Assembly (NCBI RefSeq): GCF_000196175.1
Contig: NC_005363.1
Location: 1,922,001-1,986,000 of the forward strand
Direction of reading: 5' to 3'
Length of the DNA: 64,000 nucleotides
From: Bdellovibrio bacteriovorus HD100
GTDB lineage: Bacteria; Bdellovibrionota; Bdellovibrionia; Bdellovibrionales; Bdellovibrionaceae
The position numbers were made by a program, and so were the translations under genes. This document shows, one piece after another, positions 5,840-11,416 of the stretch. The notes under the pieces were generated by a model. It made no database searches. It was not told where the DNA came from and worked only from the letters and a program-made list of their open reading frames with translations. The first letter of the stretch is position 1. The number at the start of each line of letters is the position of its first letter.

Positions 5840-6703
5840 ATGGCTACTTTAAAACTGCATGGACATGAGTATTACTATGAAGATCATGGCCCCAAAGACG
5901 CCCCCTGCATCGTGCTGAGTCCTCTTGTTTATACAGACACCACTGTTTATGAGCCCATCGCCCGCATCCTGGCGGATGACTATCGTGTGATCACCTATGA
6001 TCACCGCGGCTTGGGTCGCAGTGAACACACTGTCAGCCCCAGCCTGGAAAGCAGCGCCAAGGATGTGGCCGCGCTTATTGAGCAACTGGGTGTCGGACCC
6101 TGCCACTTTGTAGGGAACTGTCTGGGAGCCTATATCGGCCTTCGACTGGCCATCCATCGATCTGACCTGTTGAAAAGCTGCACTTTGATGGGTGCGGTCG
6201 CTGAAGGTGAAAGTGACGAAACAATCAAAGCCATGGAAGGCTTTGTCGCCAATATCAAGAAAGAAGGTATGAAAGCCGGAGTCAATGACTTCGCCAAAAT
6301 GTGGTTCGGAGACACTTTCCGCGCCACGAAAGATCCTATTCAAGTCAGCCGTCGTGAAAAATGGCTGAGTCATATCAAACACATGAAACCAGACGAAATG
6401 GATTCGGCTTTGCAGATCTTCCGTCGCACCGACATGAGTGAAGACCTGAACAAAGTCCATTGTGCCGTTCTGGTTCTGGCCGGTGACGAGGATTCACCTT
6501 CCAATCTGGAAGCTTACCGCCGAATGGCGAAAGCTCTTCCGGCTGGTGAATACAAAACCATCCACCACGCGGGCTTTGCCCTTGTGATCGAACAACCTGA
6601 AGAGGTCGCCGAAAACATCCGCACCTTCGTGGGCAAAGTGGAACGTCATCTGCAACATCAATACAAACAAGCTCCACGGGACTTTGACGCCCGTATGATG
6701 TGA
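5840..6703 (+). CDS. Alpha/beta-hydrolase fold protein with Cys nucleophile elbow
   Basis: Cytoplasmic alpha/beta hydrolase of 287 residues; the substrate is unknown. The start ATG 5840 is preceded by a G-rich site (AAAAGGGGG). The oxyanion and early strand motif YDHRGLGRSE is typical. The nucleophile elbow is VGNCLGAY, so Cys94 replaces the usual Ser, as in dienelactone hydrolase. An Asp in VLAGDEDSP and a His in HHAGFALVIEQPEEV complete the triad. It is a single gene ahead of a bidirectional terminator. It could be a Cys-dependent esterase or a non-hydrolytic member of the fold. Confidence 0.8.
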   Translation: MATLKLHGHEYYYEDHGPKDAPCIVLSPLVYTDTTVYEPIARILADDYRVITYDHRGLGRSEHTVSPSLESSAKDVAALIEQLGVGPCHFVGNCLGAYIGLRLAIHRSDLLKSCTLMGAVAEGESDETIKAMEGFVANIKKEGMKAGVNDFAKMWFGDTFRATKDPIQVSRREKWLSHIKHMKPDEMDSALQIFRRTDMSEDLNKVHCAVLVLAGDEDSPSNLEAYRRMAKALPAGEYKTIHHAGFALVIEQPEEVAENIRTFVGKVERHLQHQYKQAPRDFDARMM

Positions 6704-6717
6704 TGAAGTTGAGCTCC

Positions 6718-6743
6718 AAAGCCCTCTCGAAAGAGAGGGCTTT
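6718..6743. terminator. Bidirectional intrinsic terminator
   Basis: GCCCTCTC (6721-6728), a GAAA loop and GAGAGGGC (6733-6740), flanked by AAA and TTT, form an 8-11 bp hairpin. It lies between the converging hydrolase and CsoR-family genes and can serve both. Confidence 0.8.
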
Positions 6744-6747
6744 CTTA

Positions 6748-7008
6748 TCAGATATACTTGGTGATTTCCTTGATTTCGTCCAAATCAAGTTCCTCGTGGT
6801 TGCCATCCAGGCAGTGCTCAATGTGATCGTGAATATAAACGCTTTTTGCTGCTGACAAAGCCTTGGTGACGGCATGCAGTTGGCGGGCCACATCCACGCA
6901 CGGGCGTTCGTCAGCAATCATTTTAATAACAGTTTCCAGGTGGCCTTTGGCGCGTTTCAGGCGTTTTGAGACATCCTCGTGACTTGCGTGTTGCTTTTTG
7001 TGTGACAT
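6748..7008 (-). CDS. CsoR/RcnR-family metal-sensing repressor
   Basis: All-helical, metal-responsive DNA-binding repressor of 86 residues. ATG 7008 gives the MSHKKQH start usual for this family; a longer open frame upstream would overlap ferroportin. Metal ligands in the CsoR register are visible: Cys37, His62 (+25) and Cys66 (+29), the Cys-His-Cys set known for Cu(I) CsoR and Ni(II) InrS, plus an N-terminal His3 as in RcnR. It is divergent from the ferroportin gene, with a palindrome between them, so it most likely represses ferroportin and itself until metal binds. Which metal it senses cannot be decided from sequence. Confidence 0.88.
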   Translation of the reverse strand: MSHKKQHASHEDVSKRLKRAKGHLETVIKMIADERPCVDVARQLHAVTKALSAAKSVYIHDHIEHCLDGNHEELDLDEIKEITKYI

Positions 7009-7017
7009 GAATCTAGC

Positions 7018-7034
7018 ATCCCCTCCCGGGGGAT
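7018..7034. promoter_or_regulatory. Putative CsoR-family operator
   Basis: ATCCCC (7018-7023), a 5-base spacer and GGGGAT (7029-7034) form an inverted G/C-tract repeat. This resembles the G-tract operators of the CsoR/RcnR family. It fills most of the 35 bases between the divergent repressor and ferroportin start codons and overlaps both ribosome-binding regions. Confidence 0.6.
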
Positions 7035-7043
7035 AGGATGTCA

Positions 7044-8366
7044 ATGAAAGTCCAGAGCTTGTTGCGAATTGAAACCCAACTGTTGTTGGGAAGATTGTTA
7101 ACCAGATCCGGGGATCAGGCCTGGGACTTTGTGGTGCCATTTGCTTTGTTGGTGATCTTTCCTGGGAAGCTGCAGGTCGCGGCGTTTTACTATCTTATAG
7201 TGAAGATCGGGACCTTTCTTTTGACCCCTTCCAGCGGGAAATGGATCGACACTCATCCGCGCATTCAGGTGGTGAAGTGGGGAGTCTGGCTGCAGTTCTT
7301 TGCCATTCTTGCCGGCATGGTGTTTTTTGGAATGCTGGATGGTCTTGTTCGTGCGGGCGGCCGTGAGTCGTGGCTGTTGTCTGTCCTTTTTATCGCTCTG
7401 GCTTTGTCGGGGGTGATGGCTTCATTGGGGTCGCAGATCACAGACATCTCAGTTGGGAATGATCTGGCGCCATCCCTGGTGGCCCCGGAAAAACTGACCC
7501 ACTTCAACAGCTGGTTGCGCCGAATCGATCTGGCCACCGAGGTGGGGGCGCCCATCCTGGCCGGAGCTTTATTTGCATTTCACCCAGAACAACTTCCGCT
7601 GGCTGGTTTGTTCCTGATTGGTCTTTGGAATCTGGTTTCTTTTGTTCCTGAATACTTTCTTTTGCGGAATGTGATTCAAAGGTCGGGCTTGAAGATCAAG
7701 GTTCTGACGGAGGCGCAAAGCTGGAAAGACACTTTTCACATCAATCTGCGCGGCTCTTTCAGCGATCCTATTTTCTGGCTGATCTTAAGTTATGCGTTGT
7801 TGTGGCTTTCGGTGTTAAGTCCTCATGGGGTTTTGCTGGCAGCCTACCTGAAGGATGAGATGAGACTTCCCGAAACAGAGATTGGCCTTTTCCGTGGGTT
7901 GGGTGCCGTCTTTGGTTTGATCTCCACTGTGAGTTTTCCCTATCTGGTCCGTCGCCTGGGATTGATCAGCAGTTCAAGATGGCATCTGGGATTTCAGGGA
8001 GTGACACTGGGAATTGCAGTCACCGCTTTTGCGATGGGATCGACGGCCTCGGTCTATGTGTTTTTGGGATGTATTCTGCTTTCGCGGGTGGGTCTTTATG
8101 GGTTTTCCAACGGGGAGTTTGAACTTCGCCAAAGACTTATCCCTGAAGGGCGTCGCGGGGAATTGAACTCGCTAAGTTCTTTGACCACAACGTCTGCCAC
8201 CTTGATTTTATTTTCGGCCGGCAGTTTGCTGCCACAAACGGAAGACTTTAAGTATCTGGTTTATGTCTCACTTGCCGCCGTGCTTTTGGCAAATGTGGTT
8301 TTTATCAAATGGTCCAGCAGGCAGGGCGTGGTGACATCAGGCGCTGCTGAACCCGTTGAATCCTGA
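7044..8366 (+). CDS. Ferroportin-family divalent metal exporter (matches BbFPN)
   Basis: Twelve-helix major-facilitator-fold exporter in the inner membrane, homologous to human ferroportin (SLC40A1). Counting from ATG 7044 (440 residues; AGGA site 5 bases upstream), Thr20, Asp24, Asn196, Ser199, Phe200 and His261 occur exactly at the positions I recall as the metal and gating residues of the Bdellovibrio bacteriovorus ferroportin crystal structures. An ATG two codons earlier would shift this numbering and is less likely. BbFPN is known to move Fe(II) and some related divalent ions. The divergent CsoR-type repressor suggests induction by a metal, possibly not iron. Confidence 0.95.
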   Translation: MKVQSLLRIETQLLLGRLLTRSGDQAWDFVVPFALLVIFPGKLQVAAFYYLIVKIGTFLLTPSSGKWIDTHPRIQVVKWGVWLQFFAILAGMVFFGMLDGLVRAGGRESWLLSVLFIALALSGVMASLGSQITDISVGNDLAPSLVAPEKLTHFNSWLRRIDLATEVGAPILAGALFAFHPEQLPLAGLFLIGLWNLVSFVPEYFLLRNVIQRSGLKIKVLTEAQSWKDTFHINLRGSFSDPIFWLILSYALLWLSVLSPHGVLLAAYLKDEMRLPETEIGLFRGLGAVFGLISTVSFPYLVRRLGLISSSRWHLGFQGVTLGIAVTAFAMGSTASVYVFLGCILLSRVGLYGFSNGEFELRQRLIPEGRRGELNSLSSLTTTSATLILFSAGSLLPQTEDFKYLVYVSLAAVLLANVVFIKWSSRQGVVTSGAAEPVES

Positions 8367-8369
8367 AGT

Positions 8370-9302
8370 TTATTTTACGTAAAGGTCTGCGGCTTTTGGA
8401 GTGGACTTGATCAGTTTTAGTTTTTTCATCTGCTGAACCAGGGTGTCCCAGCGGTCATCGGTCATGGAGCCCACAGTAGTACCAGCTGTTTCAATCAAGG
8501 GCTTTTGAATATCGGCGGCCTTGTTAAAAGTCTCCAGATCAATGGCTTTGTTCAATTTGGCCATGTGTTCATTGGTGGCTTTGGGATCTTTCAGATAGTG
8601 CGCCCAGCCTTCGCGCGTGGCTGCCAGAACCTTTTGTACCAGCTCCGGTTTGTTTTTCAGGGTTTCTTCCGTGGTGGCTAGTACCACCAGGTAAGGATTA
8701 AAACCTTCATCCGCAATCAGGAAGTTTTTAACTTTGGCGCCGGCTTTTTCGGCGCTCAAAGGCTCAATGGTGATAAAGCCCTGCTGGGAAAAGGTCATGT
8801 CGTTGACAAAGTTGCTAACTCCACCCAAATAAGGCACGACACGGACTTTGGGCTTTCCGAATTTTTGCACCAAATACTGATAATATGGCAGCCCTGATTG
8901 CATGGACAGGAAGCCTTCGTTGGTGAAAACATCCTTCAGGCTTTTAAAGTTTCTTTCTGCGTGGGTCATCACGATGTAAGGGGATTTTTGATAAACCGCG
9001 AACAGGGCTTTGACCTTGTTCACTTTGTTTTTGTCCTGGGAAATGATCAGTTCATCGGCGCTGACGATGGCAAAATCAACTTTGTTGTTTGCAAGCATCT
9101 GCACGGTGGGTGTTCCAGACCCGCCCTCAAGCACTTTTACATCCAGACCTTGCGCTTTATAGAAGCCCTGCAAAGAGGCGGCGTAGAACCCACCAAACTC
9201 AGGCTCCGCTTTCCAGTTCAGTGCCAATGTCACAGGAGTGTTGGCAGCAAAGGCTGTCGATGTCATCAGCATAGAAAATAAAAGGGTGATAATGGTTTTC
9301 AT
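8370..9302 (-). CDS. NMT1/Thi5-type ABC transporter substrate-binding protein
   Basis: Periplasmic solute receptor of 310 residues. Residues 1-19 form a signal peptide ending AFA. The mature start LALNWKAEPEFGGFYAA matches the NMT1/ThiY-like family, whose members bind thiamine pyrimidine precursors, riboflavin, nitrate or sulfonates. The VLEGGSGTPTVQML and DFAIVSADELI segments are the usual ligand-cleft stretches. It is the last gene of a four-gene operon, overlapping the permease by 4 bases. The ligand cannot be named; the operon's oxygenase hints at an organic substrate that is oxidised after uptake. Confidence 0.85.
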   Translation of the reverse strand: MKTIITLLFSMLMTSTAFAANTPVTLALNWKAEPEFGGFYAASLQGFYKAQGLDVKVLEGGSGTPTVQMLANNKVDFAIVSADELIISQDKNKVNKVKALFAVYQKSPYIVMTHAERNFKSLKDVFTNEGFLSMQSGLPYYQYLVQKFGKPKVRVVPYLGGVSNFVNDMTFSQQGFITIEPLSAEKAGAKVKNFLIADEGFNPYLVVLATTEETLKNKPELVQKVLAATREGWAHYLKDPKATNEHMAKLNKAIDLETFNKAADIQKPLIETAGTTVGSMTDDRWDTLVQQMKKLKLIKSTPKAADLYVK

Positions 9303-10060
9303 AATTCTCCTTGTGTGGAAGAGGCCAGGGGGCGGCGGCTAAGTATAAATTTATGAAGCAAAGCCCAGGTGCCCATTAAAAGAAGTCCCATCAGTGATAA
9401 CAACAAAAGGGCGCCAAAGACAATATCGACCCGCTGTTGGGTGCGCGCAGAATCAATCAGAGCACCCAAACCCCCGCCAGCCACAAACTCCCCGGCGATG
9501 GCACCGATAATCGACAGACCGGTCGAGATTTTAAGGCCGGAATAGATATAGCTGTAAGCATGGGGAAGTTTTAACTTCCACAGAGTCTGCATACGAGTGG
9601 CGCGGTAAATCCTGAATAAATCTTTTTGTGATTCACTGACACTTTCAAGACCCATCAGGGTGTTGGCGATAATCGGGAACAGTGAAACAATAAAACTTGA
9701 AGCAATGACGGTGGGGGCACCAAAGCCGAAATAGATCACCAACAAAGGGGCAATCGCAATGATTGGCACTGTCTGGAAAAACACCGCAAACGGCAAAATC
9801 GCCCGCTTCAAGGTTTCCGACATTGAAAACACAAATGAAATCAAGCCGCCCACAAGAACACTTAAACCCAATCCCGCAAGAACATTGATCAGGGTTTCTT
9901 TGAAGGCCACCGCAAAATCAGCGCGAAGCTCCTGCAAAGTTGCAACGATCATGGAAGGGGAGGGAAGCAGGGTCTCACTCACCCACCCGCCACGAACCAG
10001 AATTTCAAGACTTAAGGTCAACACAATAAAACTGATAAAGGCCGGCAGAAAACGTTTCAT
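9299..10060 (-). CDS. ABC transporter permease (SsuC/TauC/ThiX type)
   Basis: Inner-membrane permease of 253 residues with about six hydrophobic segments. The EAA-like loop for ATPase contact is visible as IYRATRMQTLWKLKLPHA. The pattern FVAGGGLGALIDSA late in the protein is typical of the TauC/SsuC/ThiX group. Both ends overlap neighbours by 4 bases (ATGA junctions), showing translational coupling with the ATPase and the binding protein. Confidence 0.88.
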   Translation of the reverse strand: MKRFLPAFISFIVLTLSLEILVRGGWVSETLLPSPSMIVATLQELRADFAVAFKETLINVLAGLGLSVLVGGLISFVFSMSETLKRAILPFAVFFQTVPIIAIAPLLVIYFGFGAPTVIASSFIVSLFPIIANTLMGLESVSESQKDLFRIYRATRMQTLWKLKLPHAYSYIYSGLKISTGLSIIGAIAGEFVAGGGLGALIDSARTQQRVDIVFGALLLLSLMGLLLMGTWALLHKFILSRRPLASSTQGEL

Positions 10061-10803
10061 GCGCGCAGCCTTTCAGAAAGCCCTTCAACGATCTTATTGA
10101 AGCCTTCGGAGGTTCTTAAGTGTTCCTGCCGTCTTTCTGGCAGCGCCAGTTTTTGGTCAAAGACGATGGGCGCTCCCGGCCCTTTGAGCATCACCACTCG
10201 TTCAGACAAAAATGCGGATTCAAACAAAGAATGCGTCACAAACACGACCGTCATACGTTCGGAATGCCAAAGCTCGTGAAGCTGGTTTTGCATTTCAAAG
10301 CGGGTGCTTTCATCCAAAGCCGCAAAGGGTTCGTCCATCAACAAAAGCTTTGGGGAATTGACCAGCGCACGCGCCAAAGACACACGCATCTTCATCCCGC
10401 CGGACAATTGATGCGGGAAAAGATGCTGGGCCTCTGTCAGGTGGACTTTTTTCAGTGCCGCCTGGACTTTGTTTTTGCGTTCTTCATCCGGCAGGTTTTT
10501 AAAAGCATGATTCAGTTCAAAAGGCAGATGCACGTTTTCATTAACGGTTCGCCACGCCAGCAGGTTGGGTTCTTGAAAGACAAAACTGGAAGGGGCGTCA
10601 GGCAAGGTCAGTTTTACACTGCCAGAACTGGTGGCCTCAAGTCCTGCCATAAGTCTTAACAGTGTGGACTTGCCGCACCCTGAAGGTCCGACAATTGAAA
10701 TGAACGAACCGGGTTCGACCATCAGGTCCATGTTTTCAATCACAGACCTTTTGCCGAAGCTTTTGTTCAATTTTTCAATTTGAATCCCCTGGGCTCCGCT
10801 CAC
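10057..10803 (-). CDS. ABC transporter ATPase (SsuB/TauB/ThiZ type)
   Basis: Cytoplasmic ATPase of the importer. I placed the start at GTG 10803 (248 residues), 1 base after the oxygenase stop, because the protein then begins just ahead of IQIEKLNKSFG as in other family members; an open extension to 10902 would lie entirely inside the oxygenase gene. It carries Walker A GPSGCGKST, the Q-loop FVFQEPNLLAW, signature LSGGMKMRVSLARAL, Walker B LLLMDEPFAALD and the switch His in FVTHSLFES. Complete and probably functional. Confidence 0.9.
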   Translation of the reverse strand: MSGAQGIQIEKLNKSFGKRSVIENMDLMVEPGSFISIVGPSGCGKSTLLRLMAGLEATSSGSVKLTLPDAPSSFVFQEPNLLAWRTVNENVHLPFELNHAFKNLPDEERKNKVQAALKKVHLTEAQHLFPHQLSGGMKMRVSLARALVNSPKLLLMDEPFAALDESTRFEMQNQLHELWHSERMTVVFVTHSLFESAFLSERVVMLKGPGAPIVFDQKLALPERRQEHLRTSEGFNKIVEGLSERLRA

Positions 10804-10804
10804 T

Positions 10805-11416
10805 TTACACCCAGTCGTAGTTAAAGCTGATGCTGATGCGTTCTTTGTCCGAATCATTTTTGGGTACTTCATGGCGCAGCCAGGATTCAAACAGCACCAC
10901 ATGGCCTTCCTGAGGCTCTAGTGAGTGATAGCGCTGGTTGTGTACCTTGGCGTTGTGTTTGCGTGGTGGTGACGCCATAAACGAATCCAGACGCGGGTCC
11001 TCGAATTTGATCGCCGAGCAGTTTTTCGGCGTCTGAACATAATAAGTCCCGCTGATTACAGACAGTGGATGCAAGTGCATGGTGTGAATAACGTCGGTGG
11101 GCATAATGTTCACCCAGCACGAAGACATGCGCAGTTCTTTCGGGTCGATGTCCATTTCAAGATGTTTTACGAACTTGCGAACGTGCTTGTTGATTTCTTT
11201 TTCCAGATCCCCAAAGGTGGATGAAAACTGGTGCAATTGGCTCATGGAACCGTAAGAGGTGAAGCCGCCTTTGTAGTTCTTTTGCGACCAGACCTGACCT
11301 TCTTCATCGACTTCGGCAATTTTCAGGGACTCTTGCTTGAGGTCCTTGTTCAGGGATTTGTCTTTGCTCGCCAAAGGAGCATAGTAAACGAAGGTGGGGA
11401 AGAGTGTTTTTATCAT
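10805..11416 (-). CDS. Putative 2-oxoglutarate/Fe(II)-dependent oxygenase (TIGR02466-like)
   Basis: Predicted cytoplasmic oxygenase of 203 residues. It has the LFPTFVYY start, a central HTMHLHPLSVISGTYYV segment with candidate iron-binding His residues, and a C-terminal LFESWLRHEVPKN plus RISISFNY. These match the pattern of the PF13759/TIGR02466 family of putative 2OG-Fe(II) oxygenases. It is the first gene of the ABC importer operon, 1 base from the ATPase start. By analogy with tauABC-tauD it may act on the imported compound, but that is inference; hydroxylation of a macromolecule is also possible. Confidence 0.78.
   Translation of the reverse strand: MIKTLFPTFVYYAPLASKDKSLNKDLKQESLKIAEVDEEGQVWSQKNYKGGFTSYGSMSQLHQFSSTFGDLEKEINKHVRKFVKHLEMDIDPKELRMSSCWVNIMPTDVIHTMHLHPLSVISGTYYVQTPKNCSAIKFEDPRLDSFMASPPRKHNAKVHNQRYHSLEPQEGHVVLFESWLRHEVPKNDSDKERISISFNYDWV

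Follow-up and report, generated by a model that had tools for sequence, protein, structure and literature searches.

The window analysed here is a 64,000-nucleotide stretch of the Bdellovibrio bacteriovorus HD100 genome (contig NC_005363.1, positions 1,922,001 to 1,986,000), within which two genes diverge from a palindrome lying between their start codons. In window coordinates, the features are:

6748-7008, minus strand: DUF156 (CsoR/RcnR-family) repressor gene, 86 aa, assigned from its open reading frame, PF02583, its ligand columns and its place in a tree
7018-7034, no strand assigned: operator palindrome ATCCCCTCCCGGGGGAT (minus strand ATCCCCCGGGAGGGGAT), 17 bp, of a conserved class
7039-7044, minus strand: TTGACA hexamer, a possible -35 element of the repressor gene
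7044-8366, plus strand: BbFPN (Bd2019), a ferroportin of 440 aa, assigned from its match to 5AYM and from PF06963

The open reading frame and the PF02583 match (79.6 bits against a cut-off of 22.8) agree on an 86-residue CsoR/RcnR-family gene divergent from ferroportin, as a sequence-only reading of this DNA had described; among NCBIfam models no family exceeds its cut-off, the best being RicR at 43 against 175 bits. The same reading had placed an ATCCCC-N5-GGGGAT palindrome in a 35-base gap, and it is present at 7018-7034, the 35 bases between start codons holding for the ferroportin start at 7044; an alternative ATG at 7038 would give a ferroportin of 442 aa. The ferroportin matches PF06963 (SLC40) with 210.2 bits and agrees with PDB 5AYM at every residue from 1 to 433, the two differing at aligned residue 434. 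Convergent with it lies an ABC importer operon on the minus strand (8370-10902), comprising an NMT1/THI5-like binding protein, a permease and an ATPase, for which Rfam gave no riboswitch; the Rfam scan of the window returned one tRNA only.

BbFPN serves as a structural model for the transport mechanism of human ferroportin. In liposomes it transports Fe, Co, Mn and Ni, and its crystal contains bound Fe(II) (PMC4633820). In a crystal structure its His261 coordinates the Ni of Ni-EDTA, and the D325H variant of human ferroportin shows raised Ni efflux and abolished Fe efflux (PMC6079014). Because Asp325 has been argued not to bind metal itself (PMC8232785), the nickel parallel between His261 and D325H is suggestive only. 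His261 is invariant, as are Gln84, Asn196, Glu203 and Arg348, in 42 of 42 bacterial ferroportins. A 2025 paper terms the physiological substrate of BbFPN 'still unknown' (PMC11890741), and in the open-licence literature we found no published link of ferroportin to a CsoR/RcnR/NcrB-type repressor or to nickel of the kind proposed below.

The repressor carries Cys37, His62 and Cys66 at the positions first proposed as its ligands, and all three are kept in the 14 distinct ferroportin-linked NcrB-type proteins and the 11 plasmid relatives that we aligned. It also carries His7, His10, His60 and His65, and here too His7, His10 and His65 are present in every row of both sets (14/14 and 11/11). The suggestion that His3 is a further ligand did not hold up: the residue falls outside the column of RcnR His3 and InrS His21, which is occupied by Lys5 in the alignment, and it is kept in only 9 of the 14 distinct ferroportin-linked repressors, against all 14 for His7 and His10. 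The exact W column is Lys5 rather than His, and Klebsiella NcrB likewise has no His there. An RcnR fingerprint (His3-Cys-His-His) was considered and ruled out, since position Z is Cys66 and the His3 column holds Lys5. At position 'A' the window repressor has Pro36 and no Tyr, and at position 'B' it has Glu78; a Tyr at 'A' is typical of Cu(I) CsoR proteins and is absent from the nickel sensor InrS, the same source cautioning that the metal sensed is not predictable from the Cys/His pattern alone (PMC4235346). Both the mycobacterial CsoR and a CopA-linked paralogue in the HD100 genome have this Tyr.

Searching 72,556 plasmid records by tblastn with the repressor gave 649 records with a match. 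The top-ranked matches included a Sulfurospirillum repressor linked to RcnA (59.8% identity) as well as NcrB/NirB nickel repressors from Klebsiella and Enterobacter (55-57%). In a tree of 67 DUF156 proteins (93 usable columns, long branches flagged, one truncated row, L083_441-611, left out), the window repressor groups with NcrB/NirB, MreA and MFS- or RcnA-linked repressors, in a half that is split from the copper-type and RcnR/FrmR proteins with support of 100/99. The mycobacterial copper CsoR, which has 27 of 85 aligned residues in common with the window repressor, is also placed in this half, with a branch length of 2.1, and the record of the MreA relative makes no single-metal assignment. 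As judged from these alignments, the window repressor is an NcrB-type DUF156 protein, apart from the copper-linked DUF156 protein of the same genome.

The operator points the same way. In Leptospirillum, NcrB binds ATCCCCCTGGGGGGGAT, as described from gel shift, footprint and one-hybrid experiments; nickel, the metal tested, disrupts this binding (PMC3046157). Read on its minus strand, the window site shares 15 of 17 bases with the footprinted site. Among the ferroportin-linked NcrB-type genes, 14 of 15 have the looser pattern ATCC-N9-GGAT in the 90 bases upstream (L110 is one base off), as do 9 of 11 plasmid NcrB-type genes (all but L091 and L097); the Klebsiella NcrB site does not fit the pattern. 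None of 11 copper-type upstream regions has it, and shuffled sequences lead one to expect 0.002-0.006 occurrences per sequence. The palindrome occurs once in the window, where shuffles average 0.14 with up to three mismatches allowed, and ATCCCC-N5-GGGGAT occurs once in the 3,782,950-bp genome (one contig), a control pattern giving none. Because the pattern is found nowhere else in the genome, the predicted regulon is the repressor/ferroportin pair alone.

The palindrome also fills the 18-bp spacer between the TTGACA hexamer and a GATGCT hexamer at 7015-7020. TTGACA is present at all 15 divergent loci, and the hexamer past the palindrome-filled 18-bp spacer begins with GAT at 14 of them; we infer that the conserved TTGACA-18-GATACT of the relatives may be the promoter of the repressor gene. 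On the plus strand, TTGCTT-17-TAGCAT is a possible weak promoter. A sigma-70 consensus scan of 6650-7250 found no promoter.

The second DUF156 gene of the genome stands in different surroundings. It ends 6 bp before a gene for a CopA-type ATPase (assigned from its sequence, without a family-library scan), is divergent from a CusA/CzcA-type RND gene, and has the operator TACCCC-N-GGGGGTA, unlike that of the window repressor. The corresponding pattern ACCCC-N(0-6)-GGGGT is found in 10 of the 11 copper-type upstream regions, including that of this second gene. Beside the window repressor there is no copper gene; its neighbour is ferroportin, and CopA adjoins the other DUF156 gene. Neither a NicO/RcnA nor a DmeF exporter exceeds the cut-off anywhere in the HD100 genome, which has two general CDF pumps.

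What NcrB-type repressors accompany elsewhere can be seen at the eleven plasmid loci whose surroundings we read. RcnA or an annotated nickel/cobalt efflux protein adjoins three (L091, L092, L097) and an MFS transporter six (L091, L093, L094, L096, L100, L104), with both types at L091, while at L098 a cation diffusion facilitator is divergent from the repressor gene. The MreA locus (L095) and L101 have neither an RcnA or nickel/cobalt efflux neighbour nor an MFS neighbour, an RND permease lying 2 kb away at L101. HupE/UreJ genes lie near six of these loci (L092, L093, L095, L100, L101, L104). No plasmid-borne ferroportin turned up, the 72,556 records giving no match.

Across the phylum, 34 of 368 genomes have a PF06963 match, which exceeds the cut-off in 33; a scan of GTDB contigs added further loci, including four labelled Pseudomonadota. 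We counted 42 distinct bacterial ferroportin genes, with flanks often of about 1.4 kb, so that counts of distant neighbours are lower bounds. A DUF156 gene adjoins 22 of the 42: fifteen are divergent and NcrB-type, six lie upstream and are RcnR-like, and one ferroportin has only a third kind of DUF156 gene, downstream. At a further eight the only such neighbours are RND/TolC or HupE/UreJ genes (two of these, L038 and L051, are counted on a partial TolC match only), and for the remaining twelve, whose neighbours were read by eye and in some cases also scanned, the available flank holds no DUF156, RND/TolC, CDF or HupE gene. At L046 and L047 an RcnR-like repressor (His-Cys-His-His), DmeF and ferroportin share one operon, the DmeF of L046 scoring 349.6 bits against a cut-off of 250. 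HupE/UreJ together with DUF6488 is found at four NcrB-type ferroportin loci (L049, where Pfam confirmed the pair, L112, L110 and L115), a layout that matches the Sulfurospirillum locus, there divergent to RcnA. Ten ferroportin loci have flanking RND genes, and the four that were tested belong to the CusA/CzcA family. The neighbours of the ferroportins examined, in so far as they were scanned, include no iron regulator. Within the genus, 13 of 24 genomes have a ferroportin and 11 of these 13 have an NcrB-type repressor beside it. All 11 genomes that lack ferroportin also lack an intact repressor of this type; these related genomes are not independent events. One ferroportin-less genome (G144) retains a repressor fragment without its first third (L108, 1548-1718), and no trace of ferroportin turned up in the 4.5 kb searched.

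We consider it likely that the pair forms a two-gene metal-resistance divergon, derepressed by Ni(II) and perhaps Co(II), with ferroportin as the exporter. A homotetrameric NcrB-type repressor (a tetramer by analogy with its family) would sit on the 17-bp palindrome between the start codons, silencing ferroportin as well as its own gene. On a rise in cytosolic Ni(II), and possibly in Co(II), Cys37-His62-Cys66 would take up the metal, possibly with His7 or His10, and the metal-bound repressor would leave the DNA, allowing ferroportin to be made and to export nickel or cobalt across the inner membrane. Ferroportin would here take the role played in plasmid nickel operons by the MFS exporters NirA/NreB or by RcnA. 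In bacteria, BbFPN probably works as a nickel/cobalt pump and not in iron export, because a nickel-type repressor stands back to back with it and its relatives lie in Ni/Co-type efflux clusters. The sequence-only reading had proposed that the cargo may be nickel, cobalt or copper, or a surge of metal from prey, rather than iron alone. Its step away from iron is supported, with a Ni/Co-type sensor and a likely nickel or cobalt cargo, given the NcrB-type repressor and operator, the Ni/Co neighbourhoods of the relatives and the in vitro transport of Fe, Co, Mn and Ni (PMC4633820). Its copper part is not supported, because the paralogue that ends 6 bp before the CopA-type ATPase has the Tyr at 'A' and a different operator.

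The same transport data would also suit a broader system, in which the repressor answers Zn, Cd or Mn besides nickel and cobalt and ferroportin is a general divalent-metal pump. Such breadth would sit well with four metals moved in liposomes (PMC4633820), with the MreA record and its want of a single metal, and with the RND genes at ten loci, the tested ones being CusA/CzcA. Nevertheless, nickel is the metal to which the nearest characterised relatives and the matching operator (PMC3046157) respond, and two ferroportin relatives occur together with DmeF, an equivalog specific for Co/Ni; we regard this breadth as unlikely. Less probable still is an iron-overflow valve, with ferroportin exporting Fe(II) released from prey or by stress and with the repressor sensing iron directly or another regulator acting on the gene as well. 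Fe(II) is both transported and bound in the crystal (PMC4633820), four RcnR-like repressors beside ferroportins elsewhere have no conserved Cys and would suit harder metals, and a ferrochelatase gene is convergent with one ferroportin gene. Yet the window repressor retains the Cys-His-Cys set and the NcrB operator, and the neighbours scanned include no iron regulator. We give very little credence to a Cu(I) sensor, the role implied by the name CsoR, even though Cys-His-Cys is also a Cu(I) set and the mycobacterial copper CsoR sits, on its long branch, in the same half of the tree: copper is an unlikely metal for a repressor that has no Tyr at 'A' and another operator class, in a genome whose other DUF156 gene is the CopA-linked one, and the ions that BbFPN is known to move are divalent (PMC4633820).

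Among the closest known systems to the divergon proposed here are the ncrABC(Y)/nir nickel-resistance operons of Leptospirillum and Klebsiella plasmids, which have a DUF156 repressor with His7/His10-Cys-His-Cys, a 17-bp ATCCCC...GGGGAT operator and a repressor gene beside that of a membrane exporter. The divergon differs in its exporter, a ferroportin (PF06963) encoded divergently from the repressor; NirA carries the annotation of another MFS protein, and RcnA belongs to the NicO proteins. With RcnR-RcnA and DmeR-DmeF it has in common the pairing of a DUF156 repressor with a Ni/Co exporter, and two ferroportin relatives lie in an RcnR-like/DmeF/ferroportin operon; unlike those repressors, the window repressor has Cys in place of His at Z and lacks a His in the His3 column, and HD100 has no NicO or DmeF over the cut-off. 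InrS-NrsD of Synechocystis also has a Cys-His-Cys Ni(II) sensor with no Tyr at 'A' and with Glu at 'B' (PMC4235346). InrS shows lower similarity to the window repressor (35.2 bits). The NrsD exporter of Synechocystis is not known to be a ferroportin. Finally, some eukaryotic ferroportins handle nickel and cobalt, among them the plant IREG/FPN proteins and Aspergillus FpnA, which confers Ni, Co and Ga resistance and is described as having no function in iron homeostasis (PMC11890741). These are vacuolar rather than cell-surface proteins and, being eukaryotic, have no bacterial DUF156 divergon.

If the nickel/cobalt divergon is as we propose, ferroportin joins the bacterial nickel-resistance pumps, and the metal sites of BbFPN, including His261, call for caution before being taken as iron sites. 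More tentatively, and with somewhat less than even confidence, we suggest that ferroportin across bacteria is a nickel/cobalt efflux pump that was recruited several times to nickel/cobalt DUF156 sensors: the NcrB-type, the RcnR-like and an undescribed third kind rich in His. On this view, iron export in animals would be a derived function of a family of pumps originally retained for handling nickel and cobalt.

Several ferroportin loci have features of their own. A ferrochelatase-family gene (L058, 3113-3931) is convergent with a ferroportin gene and overlaps its end. Of the RcnR-like repressors upstream of ferroportin, those at L034 (4342-4668), L041 (4265-4630), L042 (4555-4923) and L044 (4708-4980) have the conserved metal-binding Cys replaced by Pro, Ala or Glu, and their metal could differ from nickel or cobalt. 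The third kind of DUF156 protein, for which the one member tested had no NCBIfam match, has a His-rich N-terminus and is encoded at L034 (4672-4986), L041 (4641-4985), L035 (6209-6610) and L114 (6310-6570). Three of these loci were already counted with another DUF156 gene; the genes of this kind lie on either side of ferroportin, and three of the four proteins have a GSHH end.
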